A stretch of 12,090 nucleotides of DNA from assembly GCA_003154555.1 (NCBI GenBank), contig PMDT01000380.1:1-12090 (forward strand), read 5' to 3'. Source of the DNA: Spirochaetaceae bacterium. GTDB lineage: Bacteria; Spirochaetota; Spirochaetia; SZUA-6; Fen-1364. Shown one piece after another: positions 3,030 to 10,675 of this stretch. Each line of letters opens with the position of its first letter. Within the stretch, counting starts at the first letter, position 1. The notes under the pieces are model-generated. The model was not told where the DNA came from. It worked only from the letters and a program-made list of their open reading frames with translations, and did no database searches. Position numbers and translations under genes: made by a program.

Positions 3030-3088
3030 GCGGGAGGCTCGCGCGCCTGTGCACCATGGCATGGCCGACAGGCCGCCGAGCCTCCCGC
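3030..3088. repeat. Long inverted repeat (hairpin)
   Basis: A perfect 12-bp inverted repeat, GCGGGAGGCTCG (3030-3041) against CGAGCCTCCCGC (3077-3088). After a symmetrical 3x3 mismatch it continues as an inner 6-bp stem, GCCTGT (3045-3050) against ACAGGC (3068-3073), leaving a 17-base loop. No T-run follows on either strand, so it is not an obvious terminator. It lies between the lipoprotein promoter and the transposase remnant and may be a mobile-element end or a palindromic intergenic repeat. Confidence 0.6.
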
Positions 3089-3131
3089 GCCCACGAATGC
3101 CCCCAAGCATCAACACGTCAGCACGCCTTCC

Positions 3132-3290
3132 AGCAGGAAAGCCCGGGCACGGCTACTGGCCAAGGTGTACGAACTGGACATCATGGCCTGTCTCCTATGC
3201 TGAAGCAAGATGGAAGTGATCGCTGTGATTTTCGATCCAGCCGAGACCCGCAAGGTAAAGGTCATCATCTGCCTGGCACGGGCCTCCTGA
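3132..3290 (+). pseudogene. Decayed 3' end of an IS91-like transposase
   Basis: Read in the frame of 3132, the translation runs SRKARARLLAKVYELDIMAC, then L-L-C, a TGA stop (3201-3203), then SKMEVIAVIFDPAETRK. This resembles the C-terminal tail of IS91-family (Y2-type) transposases: an arginine-rich stretch before [AR]RLLxKV[YF]E, a C-P-x-C-G-x-x-M zinc-knuckle-like motif, and an [IV]A[VF]I-x-D-P tail. Here the knuckle is damaged (CLLC with a stop where Gly is expected). The reading frame runs out at 3290, overlapping the point (3278) where AKR homology begins in another frame. The N-terminal catalytic part is absent. The assignment rests on recalled family motifs, not a search. Confidence 0.6.
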
Positions 3291-3640
3291 GCCTCTGCAT
3301 GGAAATGGGTGTGACCCTTGTCGCCTACCGACCGCTCGCCCAGGGAATGCTGTCCGGCAAATGCTCGGCGGAGAATCCCCCGACCGGCATACGCAAGCTG
3401 CTCTATGGAAAAAGGTTTCTGTCGCAGGCAGCCCCCGTCGTCGACGCGCTGCGAAGGATCGGTGAAAAGCACGGAAGGACCGCTTCCCAGGTCGCGGTCA
3501 ACTGGGTCATCTGCAAAGGGGCGCTTCCCATCCCGGGCGCAAAGGATCCGCAACAGGCGCGCGAGAACGCCGGCGCAATGGGCTGGCGTCTGGCCCCTGA
3601 GGACATCGCCGAGCTGGATGCGCTGAGCGCCGGAGACTGA
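3278..3640 (+). pseudogene. Truncated second copy of the aldo/keto reductase (C-terminal third)
   Basis: These 121 codons including the stop align gap-free with 505-867 of the first AKR, from TGLLSLC to the end. They keep AYRPLAQGMLSG, LLYGK-FLSQAAPVV and ALPIPGAKDPQQARENAGAM. The N-terminal half, with the catalytic Asp, Tyr, Lys and His, is missing, so the fragment cannot be an active reductase. The frame stays open upstream to 3056, but that part shows no AKR similarity. At the left edge, AKR homology begins abruptly inside the transposase remnant in a different frame, marking a recombination breakpoint. The 3' end plus 25 bases beyond the stop is repeated at 10591-10675. Confidence 0.85.
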
Positions 3641-3665
3641 TCCGTCTTATGACAGGCTGAAAAGC
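3581..3665 (+). repeat. Direct repeat, left copy (AKR end / ligase end junction)
   Basis: These 85 bases match 10591-10675 without gaps at 80 positions. All five mismatches fall in the AKR codons; the final 29 bases (3637-3665) are identical. The repeat covers the last 20 AKR codons, the AKR stop, and the final five codons plus stop of the minus-strand ligase (TAA at 3649-3647, reading LFSLS). Similarity ends sharply after base 3665. Confidence 0.85.
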
Positions 3666-4845: not shown

Positions 4846-6219
4846 ATGGACGCAGGAATGGATCCCATTCTCAAGTACGCGATGCTCGTTGTCTTTGCCG
4901 CGGTTATGTTCAGCACAGCGCCCAGCGTGCCTGCGCACGCCGCGGACTATGGACTTGTCATAGTCGAAAGCAGCTATGCCGACATGAATCTTCCAGAAGC
5001 CGTCGAAGAAGGCCGGCTCATGGAGAAGGCGCTCACGCAAGACGGTTTCCAGGTTGTCTTCAAGCAGAATCTTGGACGACGGGAGCTGGTCGATCTCATT
5101 CAATCGTTCGAGGAGCGCCCCACCCCTGCCGACAGGGTGTGCATCTTCTATTCGGGAGTCGGATTCTCTTACGAGGACGTGAACTATCTTCTCCCTACGA
5201 GCGCGCTCATCCGCTCCGGCGCCGATATCGAGTTCGAAGCCATGCCGCTCGACCGGCTCTGTGCAGGATTGTCTGCAAAGGGTGTAGCTCTTGCAGTCTT
5301 CATCGATGGGAATCGCAGGCACCCGGTACTCTCCATCGACAAAGTCAGCCCGGGCTTTTCTCTCACAGGAGGACTTCCCAACACATTGATGCTGTACGCA
5401 GGTGGTGTCGGTGAAAGCCGAGCCATTGATGGGCAGGTTGGCGTCTTTGCAAGGACTCTGGCAACCATGCTGAGGGTTCCTGGCCTGGAGCTGAACCAGA
5501 TCATCAACAGCGTCCGCAAAGCATCTCTGGCTAGCTCCCGCCTCGTGCCCGTAGCGACGAATGCGCTTCTCGGCGACTGGTATTTCCTTCCCGGTCCTAA
5601 CTCCGTAGCGCTCGCAAAAGGAACGTTTTCCTTTTCCGTCCGCACCACCCTGGAAGGGCTCCAGGTCTTTGTCGACGGAGTGCGGGCGGGCGTGGCACCC
5701 CTCGAGCTGGAGCTTTCCGCGGGATCGCATCATATCCTCTATCGTCATCCTCTCAAGGAAAGCCTGGAGGAAGACGTGATCGGGATTCCCTCTCAGAGCA
5801 TCGTATCGACGCCGCAGTTGCTGCCCAATCGGAACTTTCGCATCTCGGAGCTCCTTGTCGAAAAGCAGGATCTTATTCTCAAACGCAGTGCATTCATCTC
5901 TTCCCATCTGCTCGTGAGCGGCGCGAAGGAAGTGTCAATGGACACGTTCTGGGGAGGACTTGCGACAGGCGCAGCCCTCGTGGCCTGGACAGGAATCATC
6001 TGGAACGTGGAAACCAATGGCAATCCTTCTGATCCGAACTATCCCATGCGCGGGGTCACCTCCGGCGATATGGCGGTTGCGGCAGGCATTTCGTTGGGGA
6101 TTGGCGCTGTCGCCGGACTTGGGTATCTCTTGTTCGCTCCCAAGGCAAGCACAAAGGCCTATGACGAACGGCTTGCAGCCATCGATGCGGAGATCGCCGA
6201 GTTGGAAAAGACACGATGA
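4846..6219 (+). CDS. Caspase-like pseudoenzyme with PEGA-like domain and C-terminal membrane hairpin
   Basis: A 457-residue exported paralogue of the next gene. A signal peptide (cleavage near AHA-AD, residue 32) precedes a caspase (peptidase C14) fold at about 34-248. The fold is recognisable from VNYLLP and the strand order, but both catalytic positions are lost. Where the partner has AGHG this protein has SGVG (His to Val105), and where the partner has LDACRDNP it has IDGNRRHP (Cys to Asn156). It is therefore probably not a protease. A PEGA-like beta-domain follows (about 262-303, VFVDGVRAGVAPLELELSAG), then a helix, two hydrophobic segments (about 366-387 and 407-430) and a short charged coiled tail. 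The ATG at 4846 is preferred from promoter position; the ATG at 4858 is also possible. Its TGA overlaps the next ATG. Confidence 0.85.
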   Translation: MDAGMDPILKYAMLVVFAAVMFSTAPSVPAHAADYGLVIVESSYADMNLPEAVEEGRLMEKALTQDGFQVVFKQNLGRRELVDLIQSFEERPTPADRVCIFYSGVGFSYEDVNYLLPTSALIRSGADIEFEAMPLDRLCAGLSAKGVALAVFIDGNRRHPVLSIDKVSPGFSLTGGLPNTLMLYAGGVGESRAIDGQVGVFARTLATMLRVPGLELNQIINSVRKASLASSRLVPVATNALLGDWYFLPGPNSVALAKGTFSFSVRTTLEGLQVFVDGVRAGVAPLELELSAGSHHILYRHPLKESLEEDVIGIPSQSIVSTPQLLPNRNFRISELLVEKQDLILKRSAFISSHLLVSGAKEVSMDTFWGGLATGAALVAWTGIIWNVETNGNPSDPNYPMRGVTSGDMAVAAGISLGIGAVAGLGYLLFAPKASTKAYDERLAAIDAEIAELEKTR

Positions 6220-7586
6220 GCAGGATCCGTTTGAATCGGGGCGGACCGTTCCCCGTTGCCGCGCTCTTGATTGCAGTCATATTGTTTTCAGCCGCGCCAT
6301 TTGCCGGAGCCGACTCAGGCCGCAAGGCTCTTGTCATCGGCAATTCTGCTTATCCCACGGCCCCGTTGGCGAATCCGGAAAACGACGCCCGGGACATGGC
6401 CTCCACGCTCACGTCTCTAGGGTTCGAGACAACACTGCTTGTGAACGGCGCGCAAGGAGTCATGCTCGCATCTATTGATGAGTTTGCCGCCTCGCTCCAG
6501 GCCGGTGATACCGCCCTTTTCTATTTTGCCGGGCATGGAATCCAGATCGACGGCGTGAACTATCTCATCCCGATCGACCTTGCACCTCAAATGCCGGATG
6601 ATGTAAAGGCAAAGGGCATTGCCGTGGACGGGATCCTGGGGCGCGTGAGTGCCGCGCATCTCAAAAGCGCGTTCCTCATATTGGACGCGTGCAGGGACAA
6701 CCCCTTCACGCGTACAACCCGTTCTTTGAGCCGCGGGCTTACGATTCAAAAGACGCAGCTTTCCACCATGGTCGTCTTCTCGACCGGTCCCGGGCAGGTG
6801 GCGAGTGATGGCTCAGGGCGCAACGGCTTGTTTACTGAGACGCTTTTGAAATACATCCGCACTCAGGGCCTGGAGATCAATTCCCTTCTCAATCAGGTCA
6901 GACGAGACGTTGCGTCCGCAACAAATGAGCTGCAAGTGCCTTTCGTCTCAAGCTCGCTCACTGAAAACTTTTACTTCACCCCAACCGCTGATCAGTCAAA
7001 AAAGGAGCTTGCTGCTTCAGCCGATGCATTCATACTTAGCATTCAAACGAAAACTGCCGGGATGGATGTATCTATTGATGGTCTTCAAATTGGGGTGAGC
7101 CCGTTGTCCGTGAGTCTTCCGCCGGGTGCCCATATAATCGGCCTCAGCCATCCTGATTTCGACCCCTCCAACCAACGCATTGAGGGGGTGGGAGGTGCAG
7201 TCGTTCTCTACGCTCCTGACTTGCAGCCCAATCGCGCGGCCCGGAGAGCAACCCTTCTTGCCGAGGAAACGCAAGCATCGTTGGAGGTTGCTCTTGCGCA
7301 CAAGAATATAGGCGACGCGAAGATCAGGGGCGCGCGGGCATTGGGCAATACAATATACTGGGGTGGCATTGGCGCAGTATTTGTCTACATCGGTGGGATG
7401 TTCCAGCAAGATACCGTGCCCAGGGCTGTTTTCCAGGACGAGGGCTGGGCGATGTTGGGAATCGGAGGCCTTATCGGAATACTGGGCGTGATTCAATTCG
7501 CGGTCATCCCCAGCATGCCAGAGCCCAAGACGGATCGTCTGACGGACATAGAGGCTCAATTAAAAGCACTTGACGCATCGCCGTGA
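6216..7586 (+). CDS. Exported caspase-like (C14) cysteine peptidase with PEGA-like domain and membrane hairpin
   Basis: A 456-residue protein with signal peptide (cleavage near AGA-DS, residue 32) and a caspase-like domain at about 36-255. The catalytic dyad is intact: His107 in YFAGHGI and Cys159 in LDACRDNPF, with the usual V-I-G-N-x-x-Y start and a later STGPGQ strand. The family cleaves after basic or acidic residues depending on subgroup; specificity cannot be read here. A PEGA-like domain (about 273-315, VSIDGLQIGVSPLSVSLPPG), a linker helix, two hydrophobic segments (about 379-396 and 411-433) and a coiled tail follow in the same order as in the upstream paralogue. The ATG overlaps the upstream TGA (ATGA at 6216-6219), so the two are probably translationally coupled. 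The domain faces the periplasm if the signal peptide works as predicted. Confidence 0.9.
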   Translation: MSRIRLNRGGPFPVAALLIAVILFSAAPFAGADSGRKALVIGNSAYPTAPLANPENDARDMASTLTSLGFETTLLVNGAQGVMLASIDEFAASLQAGDTALFYFAGHGIQIDGVNYLIPIDLAPQMPDDVKAKGIAVDGILGRVSAAHLKSAFLILDACRDNPFTRTTRSLSRGLTIQKTQLSTMVVFSTGPGQVASDGSGRNGLFTETLLKYIRTQGLEINSLLNQVRRDVASATNELQVPFVSSSLTENFYFTPTADQSKKELAASADAFILSIQTKTAGMDVSIDGLQIGVSPLSVSLPPGAHIIGLSHPDFDPSNQRIEGVGGAVVLYAPDLQPNRAARRATLLAEETQASLEVALAHKNIGDAKIRGARALGNTIYWGGIGAVFVYIGGMFQQDTVPRAVFQDEGWAMLGIGGLIGILGVIQFAVIPSMPEPKTDRLTDIEAQLKALDASP

Positions 7587-10590: not shown

Positions 10591-10650
10591 GGCTGGCGTC
10601 TGGCCCCTGAGGAGATCGCCAAGCTGGATGCACTGAGCGCGGGAGCCTGA
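10591..10650 (+). pseudogene. Third copy of the aldo/keto reductase 3' end (20-codon stub)
   Basis: Reading GWRLAPEEIAKLDALSAGA and a stop, this matches the last 20 codons of the AKR fragment at 3581-3640 with five base changes, and those of the first AKR (808-867) less closely. Nothing upstream of 10591 resembles AKR. It cannot be expressed as a reductase and marks a recombination or insertion boundary. Confidence 0.8.
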
Positions 10651-10675
10651 TCCGTCTTATGACAGGCTGAAAAGC
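10591..10675 (+). repeat. Direct repeat, right copy (AKR end / ligase end junction)
   Basis: Matches 3581-3665 at 80 of 85 positions with no gaps; the last 29 bases (10647-10675) are identical. Here the sequence continues into the intact ligase gene, so this side looks like the resident junction, while the left copy carries more of the AKR. Confidence 0.85.

Follow-up and report, generated by a model that had tools for sequence, protein, structure and literature searches.

The stretch of DNA analysed here (the window) comprises positions 1 to 12,090 of contig PMDT01000380.1 from a Spirochaetaceae bacterium, and contains two adjacent caspase-like genes on its forward strand, here called gene 1 and gene 2. 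A preliminary description of the sequence had presented them as paralogues of shared architecture, one dead and one active, overlapping at ATGA and encoding 457 and 456 residues. The overlap of the two forward-strand open reading frames (ORFs) was confirmed in the sequence, and their paralogy was borne out by BLASTP (119 of 458 positions identical, E 5e-40). The lengths hold for both ORFs as called, although gene 1 may start at ATG 4858 rather than at 4846, which would give 453 residues, the length recorded in the protein database. The features of the pair, all on the + strand, are as follows.

4846..6219, +, gene 1, predicted pseudo-caspase with an export-signal-like N-terminus (ORF, 457 residues; PF00656, 41 bits)
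4879..4935, +, gene 1 signal-peptide-like hydrophobic segment, residues 12-30 (hydropathy 1.76; helix 7-23 in the model)
4936..5592, +, gene 1 caspase-fold domain, residues 31-249
5158..5160, +, gene 1 Val105 replacing the catalytic His (alignments; codon GTC)
5311..5313, +, gene 1 Asn156 replacing the catalytic Cys (alignments; codon AAT)
5623..5808, +, gene 1 PEGA-like beta domain, residues 260-321 (PEGA 18.3 bits, below cut-off; strands in the model)
5938..6216, +, gene 1 hydrophobic helical hairpin (365-430) and C-terminal helix (436-456) (hydropathy; helices in the model, hairpin at low confidence)
6204..6210, +, Shine-Dalgarno-like GGAAAAG within gene 1, just 5' of the gene 2 ATG (sequence)
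6216..6219, +, ATGA start/stop overlap of gene 1 and gene 2 (sequence)
6216..7586, +, gene 2, predicted caspase-like protease with an intact dyad and an export-signal-like N-terminus (ORF, 456 residues)
6321..6980, +, gene 2 caspase domain (profile match; Foldseek)
6534..6536, +, gene 2 catalytic His107 (alignments; codon CAT)
6690..6692, +, gene 2 catalytic Cys159 (alignments; codon TGC)
7032..7211, +, gene 2 PEGA domain (Pfam, residues 273-323; strands in the model up to 332)
7350..7583, +, gene 2 hydrophobic region and C-terminal helix (hydropathy 413-431; helix 440-453, the model around it being poor)

Pfam matches indicated that both proteins are homologues of bacterial caspases, as the Peptidase_C14 scores of gene 1 (41 bits) and gene 2 (136 bits) both exceed the cut-off of 21.4 bits for this family (PF00656). 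The PEGA score was above its cut-off of 20.8 bits in gene 2 (34.8 bits) and below it in gene 1 (18.3 bits), and the AlphaFold models showed high-confidence beta-strands in this region of both proteins. Only gene 2 keeps the His/Cys dyad, as had been proposed: the alignments place its H107 and C159 in the motifs FAGHG and DACRDNPF, whereas the corresponding motifs of gene 1 are YSGVG and DGNRRHPV, with V105 and N156. Orthocaspases cleave after Arg/Lys, and by alignment gene 2 retains the acidic residues D57 and D157, which have a role in the S1 pocket in MALT1; gene 1 is altered at the D57 and D198 positions as well as at the dyad. A reference of 125 active domains has 87 columns with conservation of 80% or more; gene 1 kept the residue at 35 of these and gene 2 at 73, compared with a median of 84 and a lowest value of 35 in the same reference from which the columns had been selected. 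Judged by alignment, gene 1 has lost far more than its dyad.

The nearest solved structure to gene 2 by sequence (10 of 10 matches), and to both proteins by fold, was that of the paracaspase MALT1, an animal signalling protein with death and Ig domains in which, as in the window pair, a caspase domain is followed by a beta-sandwich domain. The gene 2 model matched the MALT1 caspase domain (3v4o) with a Foldseek E of 2.5e-15 and a TMt of 0.78. The gene 1 model aligned across the entire MALT1 caspase domain (340-562), and the core of its caspase domain was predicted at high confidence. Structure prediction therefore supports the assignment of gene 1 as a pseudo-orthocaspase, that is, a caspase fold without the His/Cys dyad, and the caspase fold expected of gene 1 in the preliminary description was recovered. 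The claim of a shared architecture stands overall, but of the C-terminal hydrophobic segments a single one passed the threshold in gene 2: two such segments were above it in gene 1 (367-385 and 411-429) and one in gene 2 (413-431), by a crude hydropathy threshold that also marks a stretch within a folded domain of each protein (135-153 in gene 1, 292-310 in gene 2). The models are of low quality near the C-termini, with a predicted local distance difference test (pLDDT) score below 50 at residues 376-436 of gene 2 and of approximately 47-59 over residues 361-430 of gene 1.

The N-terminal hydrophobic stretch of gene 2 spans residues 14-32 by hydropathy, and genes 1 and 2 are probably both exported. 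All 120 Met-starting proteins (of 123, the window's two included) have a 12-residue stretch of strong hydrophobicity ahead of the domain or at its beginning, as judged by simple hydropathy and not by a signal-peptide predictor, so envelope placement appears to be normal for this C14 family. The suggestion that a periplasmic rather than cytosolic placement set the pair apart was accordingly rejected, the hydrophobic N-terminus being a family trait.

Several observations indicated that gene 1 has been constrained for much of its history. When gene 2 was evolved neutrally to 63% identity, a divergence smaller than the real one, at least one stop codon arose in 200 of 200 simulated branches (mean 4.7), and the two genes are most alike in nucleotide sequence at second codon positions (identity 0.50) and least alike at third positions (0.31). 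We therefore judged it unlikely that gene 1, with its open 457-codon frame, is a pseudogene. In addition, gene 1 is present on three database contigs, the longest of 31,242 bases, which makes an assembly accident unlikely. A tree built from 23 full-length proteins placed gene 1, gene 2, P0005, P0007, P0010, P0011 and P0014 in one group (99/98), within which gene 1 was a long branch beside P0014 (84/77). The best local BLAST matches of gene 1 were P0014 (145 bits), whose dyad is intact, and gene 2 (135 bits). As gene 1 is long-branched and scores P0014 above gene 2, the duplication may be old.

Searches for the pair in relatives gave a different picture from the conserved adjacency that the preliminary description had looked to for corroboration. 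At the level of the order, matches to gene 1 occurred in 3 of 26 genomes; apart from those in its own genome there were five (in G001 and G015), all of them intact-dyad domains. Across 392 genomes of the phylum, for most of which four or fewer candidates were scored, full-length coverage among the matches listed was given only by the window's own two genes, and the matches listed by searches for the caspase-PEGA-hairpin architecture held no further proteins with full-length coverage beyond the known ones. Since the order and phylum matches listed were either intact-dyad domains or the window's own genes, conserved synteny of the pair was not found, and this particular pair does not pass the adjacency check proposed in the preliminary description. 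The database matches included no relative of gene 1 that lacks the dyad; this near-empty protein search is weak evidence, because neither P0014 nor gene 2 itself was recovered with the gene 1 query. A genome of the same class contains, within a single locus (L151, 1-17000 of G395:C22), six intact-dyad C14 genes in 15 kb on one strand.

Associations between dead and active C14 domains were also studied further afield, using a hidden Markov model built from 133 related domains and reading the dyad in the fetched loci. The phylum set (L122-L230) comprised 29 loci and 80 regions (5 from a separate search, 2 being sub-stretches of others), and the named set comprised the 80 loci of a first search, 30 follow-up loci and 80 regions. 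The follow-up search for the named set was seeded with only 33 of the 80 first-search loci, and the searches that gave the 29 phylum loci and the 30 named loci each returned at least approximately 150 rows, which were partly fetched. Domains shorter than 120 residues or gapped at a dyad column were excluded (19 rows in these two sets, 14 in a third set described below). Among the 236 distinct domains, 233 had the dyad and three did not: L192 (Tyr/Cys, fused to an intact domain), L293 (Tyr/Cys) and L076 (Gly/Asp, from Spirosoma terrae). All three dead domains, and 34 of the 233 active ones, shared an ORF with an intact C14 domain or had one no more than 4 kb away on their own strand (Fisher p 0.0036, a value resting on three dead domains). 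In L293 a dead gene of 347 residues lies upstream of an intact gene of 556 residues and overlaps it by 11 nucleotides, taking the first ATG as start, which is the order seen in the window; the N-terminal hydrophobic stretch of the dead protein has a lipobox-like LILSC at its end. In L076 the dead gene lies downstream, one gene apart from the second of two intact C14 genes.

A third set (L371-L458) was kept out of the Fisher test, as it was biased by the use of dead proteins as queries and by the selection of tandem regions. It held 78 distinct domains, eight of them without the dyad and three of those eight identical with the earlier three; the L076 gene recurred in L371, where it shows no partner because the flank is short, although it has one in L076. 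Each of the five new dead domains had a partner: L439 (His/Asp) immediately follows an intact gene, L445 (His/Thr) is adjacent upstream, L442 (Thr/Cys) is adjacent downstream, and L444 (Phe/Cys) and L397 (Met/Ser) are fused. In the database list, four of nine proteins with two C14 domains had one domain lacking the Cys (Asn, Ser, Ala and Gly) and a fifth had a truncated domain. Among 131 single-domain proteins gene 1 alone lacked the dyad, in a list that was seeded with an active query and is thus biased against stand-alone dead proteins.

The dead domains of L444 and L442 are sisters (100/100) with 78% identity, and their nonsynonymous (dN) and synonymous (dS) divergences of 0.13 and 0.69 gave a ratio of 0.19 (bootstrap 0.12-0.28). 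By this comparison a His-less caspase domain is maintained as a protein, at least in the L444/L442 clade; the equivalent comparison of L076 and L439 gave no estimate, dS being saturated. In a wide tree, eight dead rows needed eight changes, at least seven of them forced by well-supported branches (bootstrap not settled), and in a Bacteroidota tree the best tree needed three changes for six dead rows, with one forced. In the wide tree the dead domains of L192, L293 and L076 grouped with the C14 domain of their own locus (100/99, 100/97 and 100/67), those of P0009, P0012 and P0016 lay apart from the domain to which they are fused, and P0017 was unresolved.

Some of these loci have further features. 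The deltaproteobacterial genome that carries L293 (G454, 3.4 Mb) has 20 C14 matches, this overlapping dead/intact pair included. In L076 the C14 genes alternate with genes for repeat proteins (by eye, one kelch-like and one PQQ-like) and membrane-segment genes, an arrangement that looks like duplication of a whole unit; L439 likewise has three C14 genes. In the Spirosoma family (L384, L385, L389, L390, L391 and L393), a C14 ORF with FWDACR or LWDACR lies directly next to another, divergent caspase-like ORF with the motifs Y[TS]GHGYN and GDCCN, or overlaps with it stop to stop; both members of this recurrent pair keep H and C at the aligned positions.

Combining this evidence, the most economical reading is that of a protease with a non-catalytic partner, and we tentatively favor the view that the two genes form an operon in which a caspase-like protease, exported and anchored at the envelope, is encoded together with its own partner of this kind. 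In the mechanism we propose, ribosomes finishing gene 1 would restart at the overlapping ATG of gene 2, so that the two proteins would be made together. Their N-terminal signals would export both, and at the envelope they would be kept next to each other by their C-terminal parts, namely the PEGA domain, the hydrophobic segments and the helical tail. Gene 2 would act as the protease and gene 1 as a caspase scaffold without an active site, which most likely would pair with gene 2 through the caspase domains, as the cytosolic, death-effector-domain based c-FLIP(L) does with caspase-8, and would set when or on what the protease acts. A dead member may be a working partner rather than junk, since similar dead and active pairs occur in distant bacteria, and the proposed partnership is strengthened by this recurrence in other phyla. 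The earlier interpretation of the pair is partly supported. It is possible, though we hold this with more reserve, that exported bacterial caspase-like proteases have repeatedly gained a dead partner, as an overlapping or adjacent gene or a fused domain, in at least Spirochaetota, Bacteroidota and a deltaproteobacterium, and that these are selected, FLIP-like extracytoplasmic regulatory pairs, contrary to the published view.

A number of points weigh against the favored reading. The window's pair, as judged from the genomes and database searched, was not found elsewhere. Beyond the small number of dead domains in the Fisher test, the 80 first-search loci were centered on active motifs, which favors dead domains lying beside active ones, and the regions were chosen from high-scoring rows. 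C14 genes with a C14 neighbor are common (37 of 236 domains) and the partnered domains are mostly active (34 of 37), so relaxed constraint after tandem duplication could create the association. The domains of L192 and L293, like those of L444 and L442, keep the Cys and have lost the His, from which they are presumed inactive, and the fused ORF of L192 may be broken or misassembled because an upstream stop cuts its first domain. The dN/dS ratio was taken on Bacteroidota homologues and not on gene 1. Gene 1 is extremely diverged (end branch of 4.5-4.9 changes per column), and its placement as sister of gene 2 was unsupported, gene 1 being nearer to P0014. In addition, Klemencic et al. (PMC6426788) argue that, in prokaryotes with both kinds, pseudo-orthocaspases are most likely not regulators of the true orthocaspases.

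That gene 1 took on an independent role, such as peptide or envelope binding on a caspase scaffold, with the operon shared only through its origin by duplication, seems to us doubtful. This would accord with how far gene 1 has diverged (residues kept at 35 of the 87 conserved columns, and replaced at D57, D198 and both dyad positions), with its long branch nearer to P0014 than to gene 2, and with the small cyanobacteria that have only a pseudo-variant (excerpts of PMC6426788), but the 4-nucleotide overlap has been retained and dyad-broken relatives in other phyla also remain beside active ones. We consider it improbable that gene 1 has no present function and is being lost, as the remnant of a tandem duplication on which constraint has relaxed. 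The frequency of neighboring C14 genes (37 of 236 domains) provides raw material for such relics, and no dyad-less relative of gene 1 appeared among the database matches; however, neutral drift would not leave a 457-codon frame intact at such divergence (0 of 200 simulations), second codon positions are the best conserved, the domain core is predicted at high confidence, and the related dead clade of L444 and L442 is under purifying selection.

A role as an anti-phage defense module, of the caspase-type abortive infection or EACC1-like kind, is very improbable and was rejected as the principal interpretation. Gene 2 weakly matched the PADLOC 'caspase' model (50 bits) and scored 58.3 bits with the EACC1-associated caspase model NF047832, far below its cut-off of 140. 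Kaur et al. (PMC7159879) report inactivity for approximately 70% of the caspase domains that occupy the vWA 'effector position', but Pfam searches of seven neighboring ORFs identified no EACC1, STAND, vWA/MoxR or toxin family, five of the six neighboring ORFs with a clear family are metabolic enzymes, and both proteins have export-signal-like N-termini.

Among known systems, gene 2 resembles the orthocaspases (bacterial Peptidase_C14) in its PF00656 domain and HC dyad, and differs from them in overlapping a dyad-less paralogue of the same architecture; the order of caspase domain, PEGA domain, hydrophobic segment and tail was rare among the matches listed. According to Asplund-Samuelsson et al. 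(PMC3501461), an N-terminal helix, possibly a signal peptide, occurs in 46 of 398 metacaspase-domain-only sequences, the 20 operons with two or more metacaspases include none from Spirochaetes, and the dyad is 89% conserved in Spirochaetes. Gene 1 shares a caspase fold without the dyad with the pseudo-orthocaspases (YS, YN and QC types), the YS type also having an export-signal-like N-terminus. Those proteins, however, are linked to photosynthesis and thought to be independent of active orthocaspases (both points from excerpts of PMC6426788), and gene 1 has Val/Asn instead of the cyanobacterial YS replacement and overlaps the gene of an intact paralogue. In the VMAP ternary conflict systems, caspase domains in the effector position are inactive, unlike the VMAP-associated peptidase domains, and were considered possible dominant-negative or peptide-binding domains by Kaur et al. 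(excerpts of PMC7159879). These systems are vWA/MoxR operons, and Pfam identified no such component in the window.

Human c-FLIP(L), a dead paralogue that regulates the active caspase-8 (PMC7586951, in part), has the caspase fold in common with gene 1, a likeness that is one of analogy and not of membership; what was observed of the window pair is overlap and co-occurrence. Control of a caspase by a dead caspase is thus known from animals; the consulted parts of PMC6426788 mention it for trypanosomes and judge it unlikely for bacteria. No description of paired dead and active exported caspases was found in titles and abstract beginnings among the literature matches listed, which is not proof of absence. 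The recurrence of overlapping or fused dead/active pairs, together with one dead clade under purifying selection, makes the question testable with two small genes, and a partnership would bear on the function of exported bacterial caspase-like proteins, which is left open in the available portions of PMC3501461.

The window lies on a contig (C326) of a 3.47 Mb draft genome of the phylum Spirochaetota that is 69% complete. This contig has no C14 matches besides genes 1 and 2, and two others occur elsewhere in the genome. Based on the neighboring ORFs and their Pfam matches, the pair is an isolated two-gene unit. On its 5' side is an ORF of 186 residues on the opposite strand without a Pfam match, and on its 3' side are a Gfo/Idh oxidoreductase followed by a hydroxyacid dehydrogenase, an HpcH/HpaI aldolase and an AMP-binding enzyme. 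A promoter and terminator scan gave no signal near the two genes that exceeded those of shuffled sequences.

The 3' end of an aldo/keto reductase gene is repeated in the window at 505-892, 3278-3665 and 10591-10675, and the caspase pair sits between the last two copies. The long ORF at 1-867 matches Pfam Aldo_ket_red, and a second ORF at 3056-3640 shares 300 nucleotides with it at 84% identity. The 85-nucleotide tail at 10591-10675 is 94% identical to 3581-3665, the match running beyond the stop codon. On the reverse strand, 996-2918 encodes a protein of 640 residues with carboxypeptidase-regulatory-like repeats, a Flg_new_2 domain and a lactonase-type beta-propeller.
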